Shown piece after piece: positions 45,113-60,694 of a DNA stretch of 64,000 bases. The stretch comes from Apophysomyces variabilis (Eukaryota; Mucoromycota; Mucoromycetes; Mucorales; Mucoraceae). Numbering within the stretch: the stretch's first letter is position 1; each line of letters begins with the position of its first letter. The stretch covers positions 749,165-813,164 of the forward strand of contig MZZL01000401.1 in assembly GCA_002749535.1 (NCBI GenBank), read 5' to 3'. The notes below the pieces were generated by a model. It had not been told where the DNA came from, searched no databases, and saw nothing but the letters and a program-made list of their open reading frames with translations. The position numbers and the translations under genes were made by a program.

Positions 45113-48083
45113 TCACACCTTTGCGTGTCTTGACATCACGGGAGGCAATTCGATCTTTATACTGAGTTTGACCATAATGGTATCCCAGTGAATATTGTTG
45201 CGATAATGCATGATTAATGGTCTTGGTTGCGGGTTTTCTTTTAACGGCTGCCTAAACGGCAGATATAGCATCGAGCTATGCTCTACGACCCCCCTGAGGA
45301 ATAAAAGGCAACAGGAGTGGCAAAGGTGTCAGCAGCGAGCTGTAAATCCGTTCCGCCATCAAGCCAGTAGGTAAGTGGACATGGTGACATAGCATGTTGC
45401 TCCGTCTCTGACGTAATTCCATATCCCATCCTTTTTCTCATTGAGCTATACAATTCATCAGAGTTAAAGCACACATGCTTTTTATACAGCTCTGAATGGG
45501 AAGGAAGGTGGCTAAGCATCGCTCGTTTGACTGTGAAGTACTGATCTTCATTTCCATAAAGCTGATTAGCCAAAGACTGGAAGCCACACCAACCATCACC
45601 CACTATAGCAACCGACTTGACTACTACATGTGCCGGGATGTCTGGGTGTACGTTGCTATATACGGGGTTTAGTAAGAAATTGGATTACAAATATATAGTC
45701 TGTAGCACTTTTTTACATACTTCACAGTAGCATCCCCATATCTCTGTTTCTTGGCTGGCCAGAGCATCTCTACCTCGTACTCCTCCATCTTCGACTGCTT
45801 CTTTTTGTCATCCAAGACTACCTCAACAGATTCTTTAGCCTTGTTGCATTCTTCTCGTTTCTTCTGTAGTTCTTTCGCCTTTTCTTTTTCTTCTGCAAGT
45901 TCAAATGCTGACGGCAAACGTGAACCTTTAGTTTGCTTTGGCCGACCTCTGGTTTTTATATCGGTCGGAAAGTTTATATCATCAATTGCCACGGGGGAAA
46001 AGTTTTCTGCAACAGTGGTAATTTCCCGCACCAAATCGACACGTTGCTGTGTAGTTTCGCAGTATCTATATCCATCAATCAACGCATTTATAGCCTTCGA
46101 CAATTCAACGTCCACATGCGACTCATAGCTTTTAGCCGTAGGAAGAGTGACATAATCCTCTAAAAACTGTTATTAGCATCTACTTCAAACGGTCATAGAA
46201 AATAATTGATATGGAAATACTGACCATCTGTGATTTAAAGTAACCACCGTCTACCAACAATTGATGGGCTTAAGACTTCTGTTTTGTCATTTGAAAGTAT
46301 ATGGCGGCACGGCAAGCCATAGTTGATTTTGGTAGCACATTGGCATTGCTCAGTTTTTTCGCTATCTTCCATATCCCATGCTCGGTAGAGCTCTTTTTTG
46401 ATGCGGGTCATGGCGTAATGGCATACTTTAGCCTCATGCAACTTGCTCAAGGCATTGATCATCAATTGATCAGTAGCCTGATTGTCATTGATCACCAGAC
46501 GCTTCAATGATTTCTTGTTGTATTCAAATTGACTACTGATATCCTATTATGATTAAAAGTATCAATATCAACATGGAACTGTGTTGTATAATGTCCTTAC
46601 ATTTTTGGTCAACCAACTATGTATGGCCTTGATCAGCTTTATTATACGTCCTGGTGTCTGAAGTATCTGCTTGATACTCCAATGAGCACCTTTGATTCGT
46701 TGAGTTGTGCGAGCGCCCAAATGAACATGTTTCTCTGCTCATGGACCACACCATTTCTCTTTATATGAAAGTAGCCTAAAAGAATAAAAGCAATATAAGT
46801 ATAACTAAAAGAAGCATAACGTAATAAATACCCGTCAAGGTAGCTGTTAAGCTCTTCTGACTTATCGGTCTCTTTTACCATGTTTCGGTATTTTGCTTCT
46901 GCATCAGTAAATTTTACCTCATTACGGGACCAGATCATGCCTGCAACAGCACCTTTGAAAAAATCTTCATGCTCTTCTGTTTCTGGCTTAAAGCACCCTG
47001 CCGCATGTGTCTTGAAGTTATTCATTATATGCCAAGCACACAGCAAATGAGGCACATCAGGGAATACGGCAGATAACACGCTGCCAAGTGTTTTGTCATC
47101 ATCAGTTCCGAAGAGACCGGGGGACACATCTACGCCAAACACTTCCGTCTTTAAATTCTTCAAAATCCATTTATATGAGAGTAGTTTCTCATCAGAAACG
47201 AGCACAGATGCGACGAAAAATCCACGAGGAACAGATTTACCGTATTCTGACATCAGATTGTCGACACCAAAGATATTAACGAGCGGCATTTTGTTGATGT
47301 TCGTCTTGTATGTAGCATCAATTATCACAACTTCACGGAAGCGACGAGCACGTTCCACAGCCCCAGGATGAGTTATGAACAAGGATTTAATGGTATCCTC
47401 ATCACGAAATTCCCAGACAGAGTAACCGTGGGCACAAAGAAAGTCATACACTTCTCGAACTTGGTTCTGCGAATTGTACTGGGAAAATTTTTGCTTGAAG
47501 TTGTAGATGTCTTTAGCCACCATAAATGGCTTTCCATCAAGGTCTTTGCTGACGCGATCAATCTGGGATGGCTTGACACCTGCTTCCGTGAGTTCAGCGA
47601 CCTTGACCTGTGTCTCTCCATCAAGTTTACGGGCATTATGATAGACGATCTTTTCTCTTGACCGCTCTTGAGTGTGAAAGTCGATCTTGGATCTCTCACG
47701 CTTAACGGTCCAAGCACCTTCTTTATTAGTATACGAGGCATAAATGACCCAGGAGCAACCAATTTTCTTTGTAGTACGCCTTGGTTTACGTTTTGTTACT
47801 CCATTAATGCAAACGTATCGGTTGCTTGGCATATTCTCTTCAACTACAGCTGCATCCTTCTCAGTAGGTTCAACATTATCATCTGTAGCTTTTCCAGACT
47901 TGGCCCGATGGTCCCTATGTTGACCATCATGGATGCACTGAAAGTAGCAGAACTGGGTGCCACTGTCCTTAATGGTTCCGCTTCTTTGATGATGTCGAAT
48001 CCATCTACATTGATTGCCTGATCACAGATTGCGCTATAAAGATCAGCGCGGGTGGGATACTTCTGGTTGATGATCTTATCCAT
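45113..48083 (-). pseudogene. MULE transposase with SWIM zinc finger and C-terminal OTU domain, frameshifted
   Basis: Order on the minus strand. A FAR1-like N-terminus (48083 to about 47700) has CYFQCIHDGQHRDHR. The MULE DDE core spans 47830-46600: EVVIIDATYKTNINKMPLV with the first Asp, FGTDDDKTLGSVLSAVFPD and LLCAWHIMNNFK. The core ends in RTTQRIKGAHWSIKQ. A SWIM finger CQCATKINYGLPCRH lies near 46350. A KTRGRPKQTKG linker with coiled coil spans 46115-45669. The OTU protease-like domain (45610-45113) has VGDGWCGFQSLA (Cys) and YRNNIHWD (His). Three lesions are seen: a one-base shift near 47978-47982, a TGA at 46741-46739, and a shift in the C6 tract at 45289-45294. An intron at 46831-46776 has good splice sites. 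All other parts are well preserved, so decay is recent, or the breaks are errors. Confidence 0.8.
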
Positions 48084-48379
48084 GAGTTCAAATAGAGCTT
48101 GTTTAGAGTAGGATGCTATTAAATGAAAAAAGAAAGCAGTAATTCAAAGGTTATCTTTTTGCCATCTATTTATGCAAAGTTTTTCAGGAACCGTAATCAT
48201 CAGTCACTTGATGCAATAAAAAGTTTTAGTGTTTAATACAGCTAATAGTAGGCTGCGTGACAAACTTTAGAAAAAGTGCATTGTCCACTATGCAGTATAA
48301 AACTTTTCACCTTATTCAAAGTTACTTATACTGTATACTAAACATTGCCACGAGATATACTGTAGATCTCACGCACTAA

Positions 48380-48696
48380 AAACATATATATAATGGATTA
48401 TGCACCCTGCACGCTAAAAATTCATATGAAGCATATTATTTCTCTCGCCCACTAAAAGGTGACATGAAGCGTATGGTCATCTTGCGCACTAAAAGTTAAC
48501 ATGAAATATACGGTCATCTCGCGCACTAAAAGCTGACACGAAGTATATGGCCAGCTCGCGCACTAAAAAGCTGGCATTGTCTTAGAGAAGCCTGCGGCGA
48601 TGATTGGTTGACGCCGTATGAAAAGGGAAAGCTACTAAAGTGACCCAAACTTTTAGTGCGCGAGGTCACCAACGTTTAGTGCGCGTAGTAATTCCC
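48380..48696 (-). repeat. MULE right terminal inverted repeat and subterminal repeats
   Basis: Reverse complement of the left end: the same 130-bp terminal block with very few differences, and about four subterminal GCGCACTAAAA units. Confidence 0.85.
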
Positions 48697-48704
48697 TTTA
48701 TTTA
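48697..48704. repeat. 8-bp target-site duplication, right
   Basis: TTTATTTA directly after the right terminal repeat, matching 44449-44456. Confidence 0.8.
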
Positions 48705-50762
48705 ACATCTCTATTTGAACACAGCGTCTGTGACAGACATATTTGCTCGAGACAGCTCAATTACAGGTGAATGTACAGACAAGAGAAAAGCATGCTAACT
48801 ACGACGACAGACCGAACAAATTTAGCCAGAGGTGGATTTGATTTGAGACACAGGTAGGGAAGCGACCACGGTAATGGCTGATTTTGCATAACACGGTAGA
48901 GAGCGAAGTTGAGACTGCGGTAAAAACTCTTGCGGCGGAACGAATCGAACCAGTGGTTCTTGCATTGCGAATCGTGGCGTTTATCTACACCGGCAGGGGC
49001 CGAAGCCCCTGGAGCGATTTACAGCTTTTTGCATGTTAATTTGCGCCACTTATAAAACGTGTTTATGCTGATGGGAAATAAATTTGCCGCTGACATAGTG
49101 CCGTAGCAGAGTGCTCGAAGGTTCAAAAAACCAGCCACGCTTCCACTGCACATAGTCCGAATCTTGCATAGATCCAGGATAAGGATAACAATGATGTAGT
49201 ATGCTTTTGCTACTTTACGACAATGTTCATTCAAAAAATGAAAAATGGAATAGAACGAGGAGAACCAATACATCCATCAATGTCATTGTATTCTCGTAAT
49301 TTACACTGATTGCAGGAAGTTCAGTTAAGGATGTTACATAGACTGGTGGATGCTGACTTCCTACAGTAATATGAATAAACCACGAGTGAAAAATAAAATA
49401 ACTTTTTGATTATTGATCGACTAACCAAAAATGCCCGCCAGTTCATGCATATAAACTTGTCAATTCAGACATATAATCATTTCATCGATAGGTGACATCG
49501 TCATTGGACATACTGTGCTTTCAGCCCCTCTTAGATTCTTTTGACGCAGCTTGCTTCATGACATCCATCGACAACAATTGCCCTATCTGCGCGACTATAC
49601 AAACATTAACGTGGCATACCATGACGCCCCTCCTTTGATAAGACGATATGTCGTCTTTCATTCATCTTTTCTTTTGGCTTTATCTCGAACTGCACTTTTA
49701 ATTACATGACCTAGGATACGTTCATCACTCCTACATATGACAAAAGCACGTTGTCAGTCAAAGCGCATAAACATGAGAAGACTATTTTAACTTTCTCTCT
49801 TCCAAGAAATGACACAATCTTGAAATAAAAAGGGATGCATAAGGCAGCTTTAAACAGAAGCATTGAATGAAACAAGTACGACAAATTGGATGTTATTACT
49901 ATCATGCAGCCATTTAACCTCATAACACAATAGATCTTGAACATCATACTTGAGGCATCTCTCATTGCATACTCTTCTGGTTAGGGCTTGAAATAGGCGG
50001 GCCTTAACCGGTTGGGTCGTAACTGGGCCAGGTCAGGATATTGACCCATGGCCCGCTGGACTGGCCCAAGATCTTAATCCAGAACCCGGCACACCATATT
50101 CCGGATATTCTCGACAACCCGAAGGATTGGGTGATTTGGATAACAAAGCGGAAGACAAGAAACTAGAGAAAAATGCTATTATAGTTTTTAACTTCGCTAT
50201 TCTACAGCCCGAAAATACAAATAAGTAAAGCACTCTCTATAGGATGTGGGTGGGCATCGAAGAACAATCCATGATTTCCCCAGGATTCTCCTCCTCGCCG
50301 ACTCCCAGACTAGCGTTAGGATACCATGGGAGTAAGTGAAAAGGTAGTATGTCATTCTCATTTACCAACCATGATTTATACTTCACGCTAGTTGGATGAA
50401 TCTGGTGTTTATTGGAGGATCGAGTTGATGAGAGTAAAATATACTTGCCGCGGGAGCCATTTACTAATAACTTATATAAATTATTTCCTCCTTTCCCTTG
50501 AAGAGGAATCGCAACAGCATAATGCAAAAAATAATATAGCGATATCTTCTTTATTTTACTCTTAATCAGAGTAGATCATTGTGACAATGTTGATAAAGAG
50601 TTATAATTAAAGTAACGTAACCAAAGCAAGCATCATCAGAACGGCAGAGCTATTCAGAGTATAAAGCACCATTGTCAATAAATTCCAATTCATCTGGCTT
50701 AGTAATTTTGTTTTCTTTGTTTATCTTTCCTTTCTCACCTTTATGCTCCCTTTATTTTTGTA
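48705..50762. other. Gene-poor region
   Basis: About 2 kb without a supported gene. Contains a GC-rich patch near 48990-49015 (GGGGCCGAAGCCCC hairpin) and another near 49990-50110 with GGGCCAGGTCA ... TGACCCATGGCCC, a potential stem-loop. Function unknown. Confidence 0.35.
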
Positions 50763-51010
50763 ATGGAGCGAAAAAGAGCAGTACAGTTTGGTGATGATTG
50801 TCCCAGAGAGACAATGGCTTTGGCAATATCCCGCGCAGAAAAAACCAAAGCATGCTTTGGAACATGGGATCAGGTGATTCATCGCTGCTTAAACGGCGAA
50901 AGATACCTGACCATGGCAAGCTAAAGACAGATCTCCTGGAACGTAAGCGCCTGCCTAAGTGTAGCAGCGCAGGTTACAGATATGACTTCATGGCCTTCTG
51001 TGCAAATTAA
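50763..51010 (+). CDS. Small unrecognised two-exon gene
   Basis: ATG at 50763 after a pyrimidine-rich leader opens MERKRAVQFGDD. Exons 50763-50873 and 50921-51010 join in phase across a 47-nt intron (GTGATTC ... CTGACCATGGCAAG) with a CTGAC branch site close to the acceptor. The product would be 66 residues, basic, soluble, with ISRAEKTKACFGTW and LLERKRLPKCSSAGYRYDF. No family recognised; it could be chance. Confidence 0.35.
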
Positions 51011-51621
51011 CTTATTTAGGCTAAATTTTGTACTTCATCTATTTGTACATTTAGTCTGCTTGCATAGATGTTCATATATAAAGACGGACCTTGATATCTT
51101 AGGATCATCACGTTTCTGATATACTCAAACACACAATAAATCATTCTACACATGGTTCCTACTTAAGTCGGCTATTAGGATCTGACTCATGTCAGCAATG
51201 ATTGGGACGTGCTTATCCAAGAATTCAAGAAACTATTTTAATACTCAAACTCTGTCATCATTTTGATATCATTTAGACGTGTCCTAAACTTTTTATCCTT
51301 TGGATAGCACAAGTATTAATCGAGAAACGAAGAAGGGTAAACTTTAGACTGCCAAGAGAGGTGACCATATATCATGAGAAAGTTTATGCGCATCATTATA
51401 ATTGGTTTTATAAACATGGTAAAAAAAAAAGGGCTTTTCATTATAACTGACCAATCGTAAAAAAAACTTCTCAAACTGAAAAAGAAAGTTGTCAAAGCAA
51501 GAAAAAGAGTCGCACAAGGTATAAATTGGCAAACAAAGAAAATAACTTCGTTGTCTTTGTCCTCTCCTTATTTTTCTCTTGGCTTGATTTGTATACGGAT
51601 CTCTCTTTTCTCTACTAGAAC
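51011..51621. other. Spacer upstream of Fanzor-like locus B
   Basis: About 610 bp, AT-rich, ending in a pyrimidine-rich leader (TCTCTTTTCTCTACTAG) just before the ATG of locus B. No gene. Confidence 0.4.
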
Positions 51622-53473
51622 ATGGATATACCTGAGAACGATTTGGCTGAAGTATTGCAATCTCTGGGGATCCCTCCTACGGACATATTACATAGGTTGG
51701 ACAATTATCATGGCATGTCTGTATCAGACATCATTATATACAAGATACAATACAAGCAGCAGCAGAAGCAGTTGCAGGAAGGTGAGTAACATAAAAGCAG
51801 TTGGCCGATAATCTGATATATTCTCCTATCTTTCTGCAATCATCAGCCTACAGACAGTTACAACATGCATGGCAGCACAATGACAATGAAAACAGTGACG
51901 CTCAGTGTGAATCAAGCAGAACCTCCGCCCAGCGACAACTCGCTGGAAGCAAAAGGAAGCGGAAGCAAACCGCGGCAGAAAAAACACGTAACAGGGAGCA
52001 AGCACGACGAAGACAGGAATTGTCGACTAGAACATCAATTACACCATATCTCACTTACATTCGCAATCAGCGATACGACACAGCATTTACACATGGTCGA
52101 GCAAGTCATCACCTGTGTTCTTTTCAGAAAATAGGGAGCTGATCCTGGTGTTGCAGATATATATGTTTGTAGCAACGGAAGCAATGACGTGTATCGCGAT
52201 GAGGCTGATCTAGAATGTAAGTGATAGATATAATTAAATTTCATGCTTGATACATCTATGCAACACTGACATCGTTGCTACAATATTATTTTTACGTTTG
52301 CCAAAATAAACTCTTCTATTGCGTTTGACAGTGGAAGATGACCAGGATATTCCAGATGAAGATATAGTAGAACTTCCTGAACCTGAAGTAGCCGAAGGTA
52401 ATAATAATATTAAACGCCATTCATCCTCTAGCACGATTCTGAATGTTTATTTGAGCATCTGTAGGCGAAAATGATGATACGGAATTTGAACCGCACCAGA
52501 TCCGACAGCATTCAACAGTAGAGTATTACGCTAGAGCTGGCTTTAAGAAAACTACGCAAAGGATCAACACAAGTAAAACACCTCTTATAAGAAGACTAGA
52601 CTCAGAAATTGACACCAACAGAACCGCTGACATGGATCGTATTATCCGATCTATTGTATCAACTTTGGATGCATTACCAGAAGTTACAGCTTTTTATGCC
52701 CAACAAGATATCCAAGGATTGAAATTCTTGAATTACCAGGGACGTCAAAGGCTGGACGAAGAAATGGTTAAGATCTTCATCAACGGAGGCACCAAGTACC
52801 GGGACCCTCTCGGGAACGCGGATTGCCTATTCAGGGCACGTCAACAAGACCAACGTATGGACAATGAAACGCTTCGTCCTGATGGGACACGAAGATGGAG
52901 AAGAAGAAGAATACAGCGCCAAGAAGCAGGTGAACCATCACCTCCTTCTCATCCGTCTAAAGAAGAGTAAGTCACTCTCTTATTATCGATAACAGCAAGT
53001 GAAATATGAATGCGATCTAACACTTTTTGTTCGTGATGAACAACAGCAAGTGGCGAAAATCATTTACGGAAAATGATACGGCAAAACTTCTTGTAGTGGT
53101 GTATTGTGCTTCGAGATTTGGACGGAACGTTTACAAGGGCAAACCATGTGGACTGGCAGACAGATTTAGGAAGCTGCTCAAACGCACTGATACTTCTGGG
53201 CGGTTAATTATGATTAAAATGGATGAATACAATACATCTCAAGTTTGCTCCCGGTGCGGAACGAAATCCTTGACGAAACTAGATCCTAGTGGATATCGAT
53301 GCTTGTATTCAGTATTAGTTTGTAGTAGCTGTCATACTGTTTGGCAACGGGATGTTAATGCGTCAAGGAATATCCGTGCCACCTTTATGGCCATGATTCA
53401 ACAACGGGACCGACCAGTCATCTTTACTCGGCCACGTATGACCACAACTGCTCCACGTAATAGAAACGTGTGA
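51622..53473 (+). CDS. Compact TnpB/Fanzor-like RNA-guided nuclease candidate (locus B)
   Basis: Candidate eukaryotic relative of TnpB (IS200/605 OrfB). Proposed exons 51622-51781, 51847-52104, 52139-52216, 52332-52397, 52465-52966 and 53047-53473 sum in phase to about 496 residues. Order: short N-terminus with DILHRLDNYHGMSVSDI; a Lys/Arg-rich stretch (GSKRKRKQTAAEKTRNREQ, nuclear-localisation-like); RuvC-I as DPGVADIYV; an acidic linker; a helical block with YYARAGFKKTTQRI and LKFLNYQGRQRLDEEM; VVVYCASRFGRNVYKGKPCG; RuvC-II IMIKMDEYNTSQ; zinc ribbon VCSRCG ... VCSSCHTVW; RuvC-III QRDVNASRNI. Asp, Glu, Asp and four Cys are all present. The exon 2/3 junction is weak (a 34-nt intron, or a frameshift plus TAG at 52132), so intactness is not settled. 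The N-terminus is shorter than in most Fanzors. Confidence 0.65.
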
Positions 53474-53796
53474 TGTTTACTGTGTGTAAGTTACAAAGAA
53501 AAACAAGATATTTGTTTAATCAGGATACTAACAAACGAATGACCATTATATTTATTCTCATTCATTTTCCCTTGATTCGCTAACATATTGTCTTTGGATC
53601 CCCCCCCCCGGGCACATGTCTGAATTTGGATGGATGCGCTCACCAATTTGGCTTTTACACTCCGTCGAGAAACCCTCTGTCACGGGGATTTTTGCGTCGA
53701 GTTTTCCAAATATACGCAAAAAACGCAAAATCAAAACGCAGATAGGCATGGAAAACCCAGTACAGTACAACTAGTCCTTCTGCACTCGCTTCGCTC
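53474..53796. other. 3' flank of locus B
   Basis: 323 bp with AT-rich sequence, a C10 tract near 53601-53610 and CGCAAAAAACGCAAAATC near 53706. In TnpB and Fanzor systems a guide RNA usually overlaps or follows the 3' end of the gene, so this is where one would look. No structure is convincingly visible. Confidence 0.35.
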
Positions 53797-54697
53797 CTTT
53801 CGTTACAGCGTCGTGCGGCTGCAGGAAATGGATTTTTGGCGACTTCTAGCATATGTTTACGTTAACATAAGATATTGCTAAAAATGAAGTCTTCGTTTTA
53901 ATGTAAGATATTCAAGAGGTGTACGTAAGTGACTGATATGATATGGTGTTGTGAAATAAAGATGCACCAAGTAAGATGAATAGTATAAAACACGAAAAAC
54001 GGAAACCGATCTGGAGACATAAGAACGTAAATAAGCAAGTATCGCTTGTGGGCAACAATTTCAGATAGGCAAAAGAAGAGCAGAATGAGTGTTTTAAGCC
54101 TGGGTACCTGCCTCGTATTACGTAGCTTATGGACCTTGATCTTACGTTGAAAATATATAGAGCGAATGACAAAGTTAGCATAGGAATGGTTACTTCTGTT
54201 GGTAATAGAATATGTAAGAAACAGAGATAGGTTTGCATTTTTCACTAAAGGTTCATGTCTACAGGAACAAAGCAAAGTGCTCCATATAAGGATCATATCA
54301 TTGAGCAATTTCGTCATATACAAAACGGGTGAAGGTCAATCAGACAATATATTCAACTACTCATTGCACTTTTGCAAAGCACTTGACCCTTCTCATTACT
54401 GCTGAAGTTTTTACAGAATGCCTATTTAATGATCTTAATATTCTTCTACCCACTTATTGCAGCTCAACTTTCTTGACCCATACATCAAGATTGCATACAC
54501 ATACCAAATTGCTACTGAGAACAACAGGACCCTTTGGCCTTCTTGGAAAGCGTCAGACAATATCTCTAACGAATCTATTCCTCTACTTCATTGCTGGATG
54601 TATTCTTTTCTCCTAAATAAAGACTTTTATATATCAGCTGGATAGTACTACGGTCGAACCAGCTTGCAGGAAACTGGTTGTAATACCGGCAAAATGT
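53797..54697 (+). repeat. 0.9-kb direct repeat, copy 2
   Basis: Same orientation and content as 38006-38890: begins TTTCGTTACAGCGTCGTGCG, includes identical stretches such as ACAGGAACAAAGCAAAGTGC, and ends GAACCAGCTTGCAGGAAACT then GGTTGTAATACCGGCAAAA. Lies 324 bp after locus B. Confidence 0.8.
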
Positions 54698-55189
54698 TTT
54701 TGCACGCAAAAATTACTCGAAAATACAGTATACTAATAGAGAGAAGAGAAGGGAAGTCATCAAAGCTACCCAAAAGTTTCGGTGAAGCACAAATGCTTAT
54801 GAATGGCAAAGAAATGATACAAAGTATATATTTATAACCAGAGTGTCTACGTAGATAATGGAACGATTTGGTTAAGAATCAATTAGATCATCCCTCATGC
54901 AGCTAATCTTCACACTCTTTGTTCAGAAGGACACAAAGAATACTTTGCTTAAACTGCAACCTTTATAATTGCAGTTTATTGGTGATTCCTTATCACTATC
55001 ATTACAAACCAATAATGGCATTGTTTATGACCGGGGCCAGATCGATTAAAAGTAGCTTTTCAGGTTTTCTTTTATTTTTAAACGCTTTTCTCTTCTTTAT
55101 TTCCTGAGGTTCTTACCGACAGATTAAAGGAAAACGATCGCTATACTGATATGCAGCCTAAGCAACATGATTTTAATCACCGATACCTG
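54698..55189. other. Spacer, no gene seen
   Basis: About 490 bp between the 0.9-kb repeat and Fanzor-like fragment C. Nothing supported. Confidence 0.4.
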
Positions 55190-55547
55190 AAGTCTATGCG
55201 ATGGATACGTACACCTACGGTTCCTTGCAACGGCTTGTTCAATTCCATTCAGAAAGAACCCTGCCACGCACCACAAGGTAAGAAATTTCGTAGACAGCCA
55301 ATGGAAAATAGTGTCTAACAAGGGATCTTCTGTCTGTATGAATCCCGGTGTCCATGCAGCAAAGCAGGACGAAATACAAAAAAACCAAGATGTTCAGGGT
55401 GCTGAAAGCATTACTTTCGTTGTAGCAAGTCAATTACTTGTTGGGCGCACCTTACCATGCTTTGACCTAACCTATCACTTCCGAACCAGCCAACATTTTC
55501 CTCTCTACTATGACGCACTGATAACAGTTATGACCATGTTTCTTTGA
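55190..55547 (+). pseudogene. C-terminal fragment of a Fanzor-like protein (locus C)
   Basis: The frame 55226-55547 reads IPFRKNPATHHKVRNF, then SNKGSSVCMNPG (second zinc-ribbon half with one Cys lost) and NQDVQGAESITFVVASQLLV (RuvC-III with Asp kept but the usual Arg changed to Gln), followed by a short tail. This parallels MNPGC ... NRDVEAATCIAIAVAS of locus A. RuvC-I, RuvC-II and the N-terminus are absent. A dead remnant of the locus A type rather than of locus B. Confidence 0.5.
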
Positions 55548-55742: not shown

Positions 55743-56768
55743 TTAGGATGATTCGTCTATCTGTTTTTGCTTTTGCGCTTCTTTCCGCTGCGCCAATTTT
55801 GCTAATTTCTTTTCTTGTCGACGACTGAGCCCAATCTGCTGACGATTATACATCTTGGTTTGTTCAAAGAACTTTTCCAACGAAAGCGCATCCACATCAT
55901 CTAGAGTGAACCGGCCAAGCTTTCCCGTTCGATACTGTTTGAGGAAAAATTTGGCTGCCATATTTAAATCTAATTCCCCTCCTTTGACAATTGCTCCTAT
56001 ACGTCGTGCAACACCTTCTAAAAGTTCATGTACATCATTGGTAGGTCCAATTCCGTACCAATTGGTGTAATCGAGCGCTCCAAACCCATTAAGACGATAC
56101 AACAGATAGTCGGCCATCACTTGTTCATCTGCTAAATGATCTCTGATTCCTCCCGTTAAAGCAACCTTCAGACTCCGGACAGGATCAGCAATATGGGGAA
56201 CCATCACACCAGGTGTGTCGATCAAATACACAGCTGGATCTTCCAAGACCTTTACTGTACCTATTACGGTGCGTGTAATACCAGGTTGCGCCCCAGTCTG
56301 CGCAGCCTTGCCTTTACCCACGCCAATCCGTCTCAGGGAGTTGATGAGCGAAGACTTGCCGACATTGGGCATACCAACGATCATCAGAGTCACCTGAGGT
56401 ATAGGGTCGGCTAAGGTCGCGGCGTATTTTAAGATATCCCGTACATTCTTATCCGTCTGACAGCTAGTGAATAAAACGGGAGTGCCGGGTGCATGCCGGG
56501 CAAATGCTTGTAAAATCGGCGACTTAGTTTCGGGATGAGCGAGATCAAATTTGTTATAAACGATCATTCTTGGTTTGCGACCGACGACTTTTTCGAAATT
56601 GGGGTTGACGGACGAGAGAGGGATGCGAGCATCGCGTACCTCTATTACCAGATCAACGGAATTCAATCGTTCCGATATCAATCGTAGCCCTTTGGCCATA
56701 TGGCCAGGAAACCAATTGATTATTCTGTCATAAGGAAACGTCGTCCGGGGAATAAAACGGGCTGCCAT
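55743..56768 (-). CDS. MTG1: Mitochondrial ribosome-associated GTPase MTG1
   Basis: Circularly permuted GTPase needed for assembly of the large mitochondrial ribosomal subunit. Single exon, 341 residues, start at MAARFIPRT (a short basic presequence). INWFPGHMAKGLRLI is the family hallmark. The permuted G motifs appear as G4 YNKFDLA, G5-like FTSCQ, G1 IVGMPNVGKSSLIN, G2-region QPGITRTV and G3 LIDTPGVM, in the order G4-G5-G1-G2-G3. The Lys/Arg-rich C-terminus suits RNA binding. The frame is open a little further upstream (to 56807), but without ATG. Confidence 0.95.
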   Translation of the reverse strand: MAARFIPRTTFPYDRIINWFPGHMAKGLRLISERLNSVDLVIEVRDARIPLSSVNPNFEKVVGRKPRMIVYNKFDLAHPETKSPILQAFARHAPGTPVLFTSCQTDKNVRDILKYAATLADPIPQVTLMIVGMPNVGKSSLINSLRRIGVGKGKAAQTGAQPGITRTVIGTVKVLEDPAVYLIDTPGVMVPHIADPVRSLKVALTGGIRDHLADEQVMADYLLYRLNGFGALDYTNWYGIGPTNDVHELLEGVARRIGAIVKGGELDLNMAAKFFLKQYRTGKLGRFTLDDVDALSLEKFFEQTKMYNRQQIGLSRRQEKKLAKLAQRKEAQKQKQIDESS

Positions 56769-56991
56769 GCCATGAACAAGCTGGAAAACACAGAGGATTT
56801 CAGCCAACAGTCAGTCACACCTGGTGGTGCCTTGCTTCATCTTTGACTCCGACCAAATGTCGGCGGATCGAGCGCAACTCGAAGGAGAGAGCGCCACATG
56901 TCAAAAATGAAAATCTAATGCTGTTTAAATCACGCATTACTAACAGTCAATGTTGTCTATCTTCCCTTGAAGGTGCTACTTTTTTATCTGA

Positions 56992-59900
56992 TCAATTAAA
57001 AAGATTCAGTACAGCCTGATGGACATCCCAGTCAACAGCTTCTAATCTCTTGTACGCTTCCTGAACATTGCACAGCTCGTAATCTGCAACGTAACGTGCT
57101 TTCTTTTCCAAGATAAGATGTGTTAATTGCTGTTGCCAATCCTGAACGATCTTTTCCAAAATGCGGTCTCTGTTTTTAGCCTCTATGAGCTTGACCTTGG
57201 CAATAAAACCAGCACTGATTGGCCTATGATCAGACGCACGCACTTCATGGCGTTGGTAATAGACATTATCGATGTCCTTCCCGCGGAAAAGAACACGATC
57301 ACACCACGCAGGTACACGCTTTTTCTCAGATCTATCATAGAAGTCGGTGCCCGGATCATATTTATAAGTCGGGTCAAACAAAATAGGCGCCTCTTGGAAC
57401 GTCAATAGTTTGAAGAGCGGATTAATCAATCTTTGCTTGTGAAGTTGATCCTCTTTCTGGAGCATTTCCCAGGCGTGTAGTTTGTCTGCGCTGGCCAGCA
57501 GCTGAAGAACCTTTTCACGACGCATGTTGATTCGGTAATTGAGATCGCCGCTCATGAAACAGAGCTCATGGTCCATAACAAGACTGCCATCCCCACCGTT
57601 CGCAAATATATCGCAATATTCAGGGAAATCCTTAAAAGAAGCACTGTGAAGGATACCCTCCGCATCGGCATTTCGCTGCTGAACGTGTGATTGTCCGGCT
57701 GCCAAATGACAGTTTACGAAACATAATGACGTGTGATCAAACAAGAACCGGATAGCGATCCCGCCTTTGTTTCCATGAAGACTTTTGTTCATCACCTTCA
57801 ATCCCGTTTTCACCTGACTCGACTCACAGTGGAAAATCCGATCCCGTTCGCTTGACTTTACAAAAATACAACTAAACAAACCCACAAGCTGGTCTGTCTT
57901 GATGACGGTATACACATTTTGCCCATAATTATCAGCAATCACACGTATTAGATGGTCATGCCAAAGACGGTATCGATGAGTTAGTGCTTCTTCAGCTTCG
58001 CTCGGTGTTTCTGTCTTTTTCCGAGACGCAAACAATGATCCTACACAACAGTAATTTAGCAAACGAATATCGATTGACATTTGCAATGCTACTTACGAGC
58101 AGTTTGCTTTTTTGATTCTAAATCAACAATCTCCTGAATGCCGACCACAATGATATCAGGGTCTTCCATGCCACCCAACCATTCGTGAACACTTTCATCA
58201 TCGCTTCCCAATAATTTCTCAGGTTTGTTGGCATCAATATTCCAAGAACAAATCATAATGCGGGTATCGCGATAAGTACAATATTCGTTTGTATGTTTCT
58301 GCAGCTGCTGATCTGATGTGATATTTTTCGTTAAGCACAAATGCATTCACGACTTAAACGCACAACCCACCTTGCCAATTTTCGATCATTAAACCATCCC
58401 AGATCGATACAGTGCCATTGGAATCAGCAGTGATCACTTGTACCGTCTTCTCATCGCGCGTGAGTGCCGATTCATCAACAATAATATCTGTTATAGAACC
58501 TGTATGTGCTTTCCACATCTTTACAACAATCCATTTATCCGGCCGAGTGTCATACACATAGATCATGCCAGTATTGTAGCCAGCCCAGATGTAGTACTCG
58601 CCAACAGCTGCCATAGCACAGATGCCGTACATCGATACAGTGATGACTTGGACACGGTCCACTGTAATCGTATCCCAGAGGCTAATTTTGCCATCGTCAT
58701 GTGAAGCGAAAATACGCTGTTTGTGGTAGGGTACAGCCGCAAGACCGGTGATATTCCCTAGATCATTTGGAATACGCACATGAGGAGAAGCAAGTTGGAT
58801 GTGAGTAAGCCTGAAAAGGTCCAAGGTACGTCCAGAAGACATCCACAGGTCAGCGTCTAAAGCCAATGCAGCGACCGCCTTGGATGTCACTTTGTATTTC
58901 TGAGGCGTAATCTCGAGGGGATGATCTCGTTCGCAATCAACGGTCAGTACCGGCCAGACGTTCATGACACCATTTTCATCAATAGTCCATAGTTCGGTGT
59001 TTTTGTATCGTAAAATGAATGTTACGGCAGAATTGTGGGTTGTTGAACGCTTTCCAAGTATCTCCCCATTAGCAGAATCTATAACCGCTAGGACACCATC
59101 CTGGAAACCAACCCACAGATAACGACCTTCATCTCGAGGGTTTCGACTTGGAGAGAATGCAAGTGAGCGAATTTTATCACCAGCATCACTTGGCGAGCTA
59201 TGATCTACCACATAAATACATTGACAGGAATTGGTATCCCATATCCTTGTAGTATTGACACCTGTGGCAAGCGAAGGACCGCATGCCGCAAGGGCATAAC
59301 TTGTACCTCGGTGCCCTGTTACAATACGTCGATTAGAGTCTATTAAAGGAGGATTACGCGTAGCATTGGCGAATTCGGGATATATAGTTGATGTCATCAA
59401 CATCTCTGAACGTGAGCCCGTTGTTCTCTTTTGACCCATCGTTTGAGAGCGTTTAAGACTGTTAGCGGATTGATCATCTGCAGTTCCGTCCGTAGCTGGC
59501 GCAGTTGATGGAGAGACAGAAAGTGTCCCCCTTCTCGTAGTTGTTGTTGCAGAAGACATAGAACTTCCTGGAAATGAAATAGTGTGAGAACGCGCAAGAG
59601 TCGAAGCAGACGGGCGCGGAGGAAGTTGCGGTAAAGGTGGCGCGTCAGTAGTTTGCGTGGCGTAGCTTGTTGGTCGTGGTGGAAGGGAAGGAGGCGAAGG
59701 TGTTGATGTTAAGTTTAGGGATGAATCTGCTGTCGATTTCTGTTTTGGAACGTTCACTGTAGCAGACAGCCGGGTATCTGCAGGTACTGGTGCTGCTGGT
59801 CTCGCTGCGCTATGATATTTTCTGCTCGGGGGTGGAGGAGGTGGAGGATGTTTTGCTTTTGATGCAATATAAGTTGAATCAGCTGGAGGAGGAGGAGCCC

Positions 59901-60612
59901 GAGTCTTCGCACTTGCAGAGTGAGTGCGTCTGCTGTCCGAGGTAGTGTAACGAATGTGAGCTTCCTGCACCTGACGAACCAAATTATCGTCAATATCACT
60001 GTCATCGCTACTGATGCTGTTTGTGCCGCTTTCGGTTTCACTTCCGCTGGTTTCTGATAGCATTTCTTCATCGATAAAGTGCTCTTGCGTATGGTGCGCG
60101 TCTGTTAATGGGGTACTTCGCGCGGATTTTGTGTGACCAGGTGTTAGATTAGATGAGCTGCTGTCAGAAATTTGCGTGGAAGGTTTCGACAAATCTCCGT
60201 TCGTCATTTCAGCGTTGGTCTTATGCTGTCCAAATTGCTGTGCAAGCAGCAGTACTCCTTTTGGCCGATCTTGCTCTGAAGAAACTCGAGCTGTCGTTGT
60301 TGCCAGGCCAGGTTTCTGTCCGGTAAGATGCTGCTGGGTCTGTAACAAGGCCACCGAAGGCTTTGGAGGAATAGGCGGTGCTTTAGTCTGTTCAGCCGGG
60401 TTAACTGATTCAGGCCGAGCAACAGTTGCATCGGCTATAGCGGGATGTTTATTCTGCGCTGGGTTGGTTTGTGTGAATGCAGACGGTGATGTGAGCTGCT
60501 TGGACGCATTGTCGGGACTATGTTGCTCCTTCGAGATGACTTCCTGTTGAGCCCAGCGTTTTTTTAGTTCTTGGAAAGAGACAGCCTGGTCATCATGTTG
60601 TTCTTTGTCCAT
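56992..60612 (-). CDS. Inositol polyphosphate 5-phosphatase with N-terminal WD-repeat region
   Basis: Phosphoinositide/inositol phosphate 5-phosphatase. Exons 60612-58371, 58312-58097 and 58040-56992 give 1168 residues. The N-terminal 400 residues are Pro/Ser-rich with polyproline tracts (PPIPPKPS, PPPPPPPSRK: SH3/profilin-like sites). A beta-propeller-like region of about 330 residues follows with WD-type repeats (TRIWDTNSCQCIYVVD, GKISLWDTITVDRVQ, GTVSIWDGL). The catalytic domain holds ICSWNIDANKP, GNKGGIAIRF, CFVNCHLAAGQSHVQQRN, FMSGDLNYRI, VPAWCDRVLF and RASDHRPISAGF, all catalytic signatures intact. It ends in a UBA-like helix (LEAVDWDVHQAVLNLF). The WD plus 5-phosphatase arrangement is known from plants and some fungi. 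ATG at 60612 (MDKEQ) chosen over an upstream TTG. Confidence 0.93.
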
Positions 60613-60694
60613 TGTTGTCCCTAACTTGTTATTCCTCAAGTTATCTATGTTATTAGAAGAAACGGAGAGTCAAAGCGGAAAAAAGTTAAGATAT

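Follow-up and report, generated by a model that had tools for sequence, protein, structure and literature searches.

Fanzors are RNA-guided DNA cutters carried by jumping genes. In the available text of PMC10711439, the marks of a Fanzor are a RuvC-I DPG motif and a glutamate placed six residues ahead of the zinc finger, and this 'alternative' RuvC-II glutamate just ahead of the ribbon is typical of Fanzors. Metal coordination in SpuFz1 of Spizellomyces punctatus involves D383, E541 and D606 among other residues, and its REC and WED domains read the target motif (PMC10432273, in the portion available); WED positions the first guide bases (PMC11423790, likewise in part). The available portion of PMC10432273 already describes partial Fanzor loci and 'ghost' elements without a nuclease, and the Mucorales elements ROr-4, PBl-3, MCi-4 and MCi-2 (PMC3627910, available text) are fungal Fanzor1 elements like the one described here.

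The window analysed in this work is a stretch of 64,000 nucleotides from Apophysomyces variabilis, and all positions below refer to it. An element of about 4.74 kb, delimited by the ends of similarity among its siblings (about 49,019–53,763, + strand), very probably derives by deletion from a Mucorales Fanzor1 transposon and is dead, non-autonomous and multi-copy, and the window copy most likely makes no working enzyme. Like the partial loci and the ghost element Spu-1 of PMC10432273, as far as that source was available, it is multi-copy and bounded by inverted repeats, with the nuclease gene missing or partial. Unlike Spu-1, it keeps the nuclease half, and its 3′ region is not conserved above its other parts. 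A limited literature search found no report of Fanzor deletion derivatives or of a Fanzor in Apophysomyces.

RuvC motifs and exon layout

The translated frames of the + strand contain DPGVADIYV at 52,141–52,167 (the DPG of RuvC-I itself being encoded by GATCCTGGT at 52,141–52,149), MDEYNTSQ at 53,219–53,242 and the RuvC-III motif QRDVNASRNI at 53,345–53,374, with CSRC and CSSC between the latter two forming a C4 zinc ribbon. All four motif groups thus occur in Fanzor order from 52,141 to 53,374, as a sequence-only reading of this DNA had reported. The alternative RuvC-II glutamate lies six residues ahead of the ribbon (E-YNTSQV-C) and the RuvC-III aspartate is present in an RDxNASRN pattern. 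Since the DPG and the pre-ribbon glutamate are both there, the locus is, by its sequence marks, Fanzor1 by descent, and the TnpB/Fanzor-like label given by that reading was well placed.

The last exon (53,047–53,473, +), which carries the glutamate (DEYNTSQ), the ribbon and RuvC-III (RDVNAS), agreed with this assignment in the two checks that the sequence-only reading had proposed. In the Pfam search, 53,021–53,473 matched PF07282 (Cas12f1-like TNB) at 51.4 bits (E 1.2e-13); the cut-off is 26.3 bits, so the match is not due to chance. The AF2 model of this exon (mean pLDDT 65.4) had only two PDB matches below E 0.001, 8gkh (E 1.9e-4) and 9cey (9.4e-4), both of them SpuFz1 chains (TM by query 0.43), and further SpuFz1, Cas12f and Parasitella Fanzor chains followed just behind. 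Compared from DNA alone with SpuFz1 (8gkh) and PpFz1 of Parasitella parasitica, the window shares the DPG, the rearranged glutamate before the C4 ribbon and the RD of RuvC-III, but lacks the N-half (REC/WED) and has RuvC-I out of frame.

Upstream of the last exon, the + strand holds exon 1 (51,622–51,781), an open frame beginning MDIPENDL that ends at a GTGAGT donor and represents an N-terminal extension of the ancestral protein; exon 2 (51,847–52,133), which contains a Cys/His knuckle in degraded form as well as a basic KRKRKQ segment, recognized from its translation and from siblings; a RuvC-I segment (52,138–52,216), shown by frames, sibling comparison and GT phases to differ in frame from exon 2; a small exon after it (LEDDQDIPDEDIVELPEPEVAE, 52,332–52,397), located by tblastn of the relative P0002 and by its frame; and the middle exon of the RuvC half (52,465–52,966), an open frame with 55–91% amino acid identity to close genomic copies. 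Judged by eye, four of the five exon junctions are plausible, with donors GTGAGT, GTAAGT, GTAATA and GTAAGT. The spliced structure had been thought unusual but is not: Chlamydomonas Fanzor1 genes have five or ten exons according to the available text of PMC3627910.

The remaining junction, between exon 2 and RuvC-I, is blocked. The exon 2 frame ends in CSFQKIGS followed by TGA at 52,140–52,142, and the RuvC-I frame has a TAG at 52,132–52,134 immediately ahead of GGA GCT GAT. Exon 2 has 10 GT dinucleotides, none of them in phase as a donor for a splice onto the GGA at 52,135, and the exon 1 donor, worked by hand, is likewise out of phase. A rescue splice at this point was therefore rejected, all the more as the sibling C30_147 reads across it without an intron. 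No single frame, even spliced, runs through all RuvC motifs, and because of the stops and the lack of an in-phase GT the protein of roughly 496 residues proposed earlier is a construct and not a reading of the locus; the motifs do not lie within one multi-exon gene as had been stated. The sequence-only reading had itself singled out this junction as its weak point, and the site turns out to be a deletion scar.

Sibling copies and the missing N-half

Window positions 51,000–54,500 were compared as DNA with 31 fetched loci of the genome (38.7 Mb in 126 contigs), which gave three kinds of sibling. Class A comprises eight places beside the window (C94_695, C72_140, C95_1979, C95_1375, C75_670, C11_214, C78_539 and C116_144) whose similarity extends across the junction and takes in most of the stretch; the exceptions are C95_1375, which matches only up to 52,905, and C116_144, whose match is broken into three segments. 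Class B (C30_147, C30_124, C39_116 and C94_279) is similar only from 52,134 or 52,136 onward, and class C (C92_152 and C78_745) is similar up to 52,137 and resumes from about 53,270. Outside the classes, C94_910 and C64_1003 are similar only in parts of the 3′ half, and L020 gave no match to 51,000–54,500 at the sensitivity used. The 5′ module (51,600–52,131) has 12 genomic copies including the window. The twelfth, C95_2178 (C95:2178857), was considered as a full-length element and discarded: the 8.5 kb read contained no RuvC half, and the module and the start of an N-half were followed by unrelated sequence and, by eye, a GTPase-like frame.

The two partial classes supply the two sides of the scar. 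C92_152 and C78_745 pass from ...AAAATAGGGA into the Fanzor N-half (context ..AAAATAGGGAAGAG..), and the C30 copies enter ...TTTGGGGAGCTGATCC from the Fanzor N-half (C30_147 and C30_124, context ..GATGTTTGGGGAGCTGATCC..). Written around the four shared nucleotides, the window junction is AAAATA-GGGA-GCTGATCC, the class C context AAAATA-GGGA-AGAGACGG and the class B context TTTG-GGGA-GCTGATCC; since the window equals the class C left side joined to the class B right side, a deletion with GGGA at both breakpoints is indicated, the microhomology lying at 52,134–52,137. This junction is common to all nine class A copies, window included, although C95_1375 and C11_214 lack one A just ahead of it and C11_214 has a single base change right after it. 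By tblastn of P0002 and P0004, the class B sequence upstream of RuvC-I is the N-half of Fanzor relatives, and C30_147 codes across the breakpoint (YMDVW-GADPD) without an intron. Class C continues after exon 2 as KIGKRRQ... (C92_152 DNA), toward a stretch resembling P0004 residues 3–102 (tblastn). On these alignments, the window element is an internally deleted one, from which the Fanzor N-half between exon 2 and RuvC-I is absent.

We infer an ancestral gene in which exons 1 and 2 formed an extension, followed by the N-half and then by the RuvC/zinc-ribbon half. The sibling copies hold, in overlapping pieces, the passage from extension to N-half and that from N-half to RuvC half; no complete ancestral copy was present among the loci read. 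In the window the outer parts are joined at the 4-nt GGGA, which leaves RuvC-I out of frame. The short N-terminus, which had been called unusual, is this out-of-frame loss of the N-half, common to nine copies. A product without the N-half could presumably neither hold a guide nor read a target motif, and mutation may simply not yet have reached the C-terminal exons that are open in the window copy.

The closest named relatives are Mucorales proteins from Apophysomyces, Absidia, Chlamydoabsidia and Halteromyces. Three Apophysomyces hypothetical proteins, P0002, P0004 and P0010, belong to the clade of the window (WGADPGV...YV.SNGS...DVY) and keep 137, 344 and 580 residues ahead of the Trp; the zinc-ribbon end is absent from their deposited models. 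RuvC-I reads WGxxPG in all nine clade relatives in which it was found, and the Trp is preceded by 137 to 580 residues; the motif's first residue is 141 in P0002, 348 in P0004, 584 in P0010, 459 in P0011 (motif degenerate), 499 in P0012, 425 in P0014, 505 in P0015, 392 in P0016 and 487 in P0017. P0013 ends ahead of the motif, P0003 is without it, and P0005, a more distant protein encoded on a contig of 1287 bases, reads WGLDPG, its Asp being residue 76.

The REC and WED regions upstream of RuvC-I are present in relatives and absent from the window copy. An alignment of the N-half aligned with four complete distant Fanzors (P0006–P0009) over 122 columns up to the DPG (hhalign E 1.1e-5, probability 81.6), spanning the FNLVPKPS...KKxIK, TDGF..SVP and WGADPG stretches. 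The complete-Fanzor profile finds SpuFz1 at E 3.8e-24 over profile positions 312–663 only, which is mostly the RuvC half. The AF2 model of the N-half (P0012) was largely helical, poor in its C-terminal part, of low confidence and without a PDB match (best E 0.21), and the P0004 sequence gave only an unrelated weak match in the PDB. With the model poor and the PDB match lying mostly in the RuvC half, the identity of the missing N-half rests on profile comparison and position, by which it corresponds to REC/WED.

The N-terminal extension offers an observation of its own. At 52,035–52,127 (also in L062 and L065), class C shows by eye a knuckle-like CPTC...H...C, and the CPTC of the class C copies reads YLTY in exon 2 of the window; in another family the knuckle-like stretch is NPCPACGSTEHRS.

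Ends, flanks and spread of the element

The element begins with a terminal inverted repeat, TACAGCTTTTTGCATGTTAATTTGCG, at 49,020–49,045 (+), found by pattern search, and ends with an imperfect one, TACTGGGTTTTCCATGCCTATCTGCG, at 53,737–53,762 (−), found from sibling ends and pattern search; by eye, 18 of the 26 positions pair in the window. Similarity starts at 49,018–49,019 in five of the 10 siblings with the left flank in hand, at 49,024–49,054 in four, and is continuous with a flanking repeat (repeat A) in one. On the right it stops at 53,755–53,764 in six of the 15 loci examined and earlier, or without a match, in the rest, and C94_695, C30_147 and C39_116 show, by eye, identical or almost identical terminal letters after a gap. 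The inverted-repeat pattern had 42 genomic matches with at most two mismatches against none for the backward control, several of them within about 300 bases of other Fanzor matches (C59:470421, C72:155698, C39:93381 and C88:93619). Ends resembling those of the window element thus occur in several distant Fanzor families, among them these four and C91:1206721, suggesting from their sequence one transposition system for many Fanzor families. A third inverted-repeat group at C64:392417 was considered as an autonomous partner; L090 there has, by eye, a Fanzor-like ...NHNAARNI....

TA adjoins both element ends in the window and in several copies, which fits the mariner-type Fanzor1 elements in the available text of PMC3627910, whereas three Mucorales Fanzor1 elements in the same text were placed in MuDr, with 9-bp duplications. 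No target-site duplication beyond TA was consistent among copies by eye; C75_670 has the 7-nt GTAGCTT near both ends and other copies are without it.

The 400-base right flanks were unrelated in all eight class A copies compared (seven siblings and the window), and the left flanks were unrelated in five siblings. Because nine copies have the same junction, with unrelated right surroundings in all eight compared, the broken form spread after the deletion. The left side is less uniform: pieces of repeat A are common to the upstream sides of the window element, C78_539, C72_140, C75_670 and, from class C, C78_745, and C72_140 and C75_670 have 272 left-flank columns in common next to the element. 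Some copies may thus reflect a target preference or, in part, another copying route. A Pfam search (E up to 0.01) gave no domain in 10 of the 29 open frames of at least 50 codons listed for 48,700–51,700, from which we infer that the deleted form would have been moved by a transposase acting in trans and recognizing the inverted repeats, although a degraded transposase among the other listed frames is conceivable.

Repeats flank the element at 48,697–49,010 (repeat A) and 53,767–54,741; in L088 (C64) the two are adjacent, with the second inverted. The presence of repeat A upstream of five Fanzor copies hints at insertion preference or nesting. A further repeat (46,000–48,696), whose Fanzor-facing end adjoins repeat A, has at least five more copies covering most of it and two shorter ones in C22; the 459-residue product of an open frame on its − strand (46,645–48,021) matches the MULE transposase domain PF10551 at 64.8 bits. 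To the right, 55,746–60,669 (−) holds host-type genes, among them an MMR_HSR1 GTPase and an Exo_endo_phos2 frame beside a WD40-like frame; the latter two together would resemble an inositol polyphosphate 5-phosphatase. Across the genome, a Pfam search (E up to 0.001; 150 of 164 candidates scored) gave at least 73 zinc-ribbon places, so Fanzor-derived sequences are abundant.

The 3′ end, decay and competing explanations

Other Fanzors encode their guide RNA in the 3′ non-coding end, which here occupies 53,474–53,762 (+). Among eight class A copies the divergence of this region was 0.112 and 0.131, with the position of the guide RNA within it only assumed for the comparison, versus 0.039–0.117 for introns and 0.067–0.091 for exons, and some class A copies are without part of it. 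Four folds had z-scores of −0.33 to 1.01, with no unusual energy, and Rfam at gathering thresholds gave nothing across 48,500–55,500. A hairpin-like stretch (TTTTTGCGT...ACGCAAAAA) seen by eye near the 3′ end is altered in some copies. From its sequence, a guide RNA at this end, which the sequence-only reading had placed within 53,300–53,900, is neither supported nor excluded.

These data bear on the possibility that the element behaves as a ghost, its protein dead and its 3′ end still making guide RNAs for intact Fanzors elsewhere in the genome. Spizellomyces ghost elements have omega RNAs that were active in a cell assay (PMC10432273, available portion), both ends of the window element are kept, and the genome has other Fanzor families whose inverted repeats are related and in which parts of the gene form open frames. 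However, the 3′ region diverges like other parts (0.11–0.13 versus 0.04–0.12), shows no significant fold and is partly lost in some copies, and an intact Fanzor in this genome is not established; we consider this explanation unlikely. A related idea, slightly less probable again, is that the deleted copies form an amplified family of satellites which serve intact Fanzors in trans, as 3′-end guide-RNA donors or dependent substrates, which if true would amount to a defective-interfering relationship between nuclease transposons.

The coding parts show decay in every sibling. Measured against the window exons, every one of the eight class A siblings is truncated or carries premature stops or frameshifting indels, the stop count for exon 5 including its natural stop codon. 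The catalytic Glu is Lys in C94_695 and C72_140, and C116_144 has DPD for DPG and Glu for the RuvC-III Asp. Within its exon segments the window copy is free of stops and indels, and all three catalytic residues and the four ribbon cysteines are retained, in a comparison that favours it because the exon limits were drawn from it. At another site, all six relatives have a Gly-Asp (FGD/YGD), where the window has YCA, the seven class A siblings retaining that exon have YGA or YGT, and three aligned class B copies have YGA or HGA; since the pair is changed in both classes, its Asp was probably lost before the deletion.

Pooled over 36 pairs of nine copies, dN/dS for all exons was 0.68 (0.54–0.87) versus 0.72 and 0.76 in the wrong frames. 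Exons 1 and 2 together gave 0.53 (0.36–0.78) versus 0.85 and 1.51, and by exon the values were 0.63 (exon 1), 0.48 (exon 2), 0.29 (RuvC-I segment, 27 codons), 2.40 (small exon), 0.66 (middle exon) and 1.07 (last exon). The values of 0.53 and 0.29 make weak constraint on exons 1 and 2 and the RuvC-I segment conceivable, the former being the main hint of it.

A short but working Fanzor, made by an unusual splice from an upstream exon to a TAG|GGAGCT acceptor at 52,134 and accompanied by a guide RNA, would be compatible with the intact C-terminal motifs of the window copy and with a pyrimidine-rich stretch ahead of 52,134. The absence of any in-phase GT in exon 2, the uninterrupted coding of C30_147 (YMDVWGADPD), in which the N-half is kept, the loss of the very half that in characterised Fanzors reads the target motif and positions the guide (PMC10432273 and PMC11423790, as available) and constraint over all exons no higher than in wrong-frame controls make it highly improbable. 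The sequence-only reading had proposed a 'working or recently working' Fanzor; with the N-half gone, RuvC-I out of frame, the siblings decayed and dN/dS at the wrong-frame level, that proposal is not borne out. Least probable of all is a new exon-shuffled gene, joining an N-terminal module to a nuclease half and retained because it serves the host or the element in a new way: nine copies of one chimera and the 0.53 of exons 1 and 2 speak for it, but the junction is blocked in both readings, all eight siblings are damaged and, per C92_152 and C78_745, the module comes from the same ancestral gene.

As a deletion derivative, the candidate compact nuclease becomes an explained pseudogene and would provide a clear case of Fanzor decay, in which a microhomology deletion takes the half expected to bind guide and target, the remainder multiplies and the catalytic residues erode. 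It also warns that a complete, ordered set of RuvC and zinc-ribbon motifs does not equal a usable Fanzor. The Mucorales also contain a Fanzor clade with a very long N-half, of which intact copies in other species may merit study: in P0010 (annotated as partial), P0012 and P0015, RuvC-I lies at residue 499–584.
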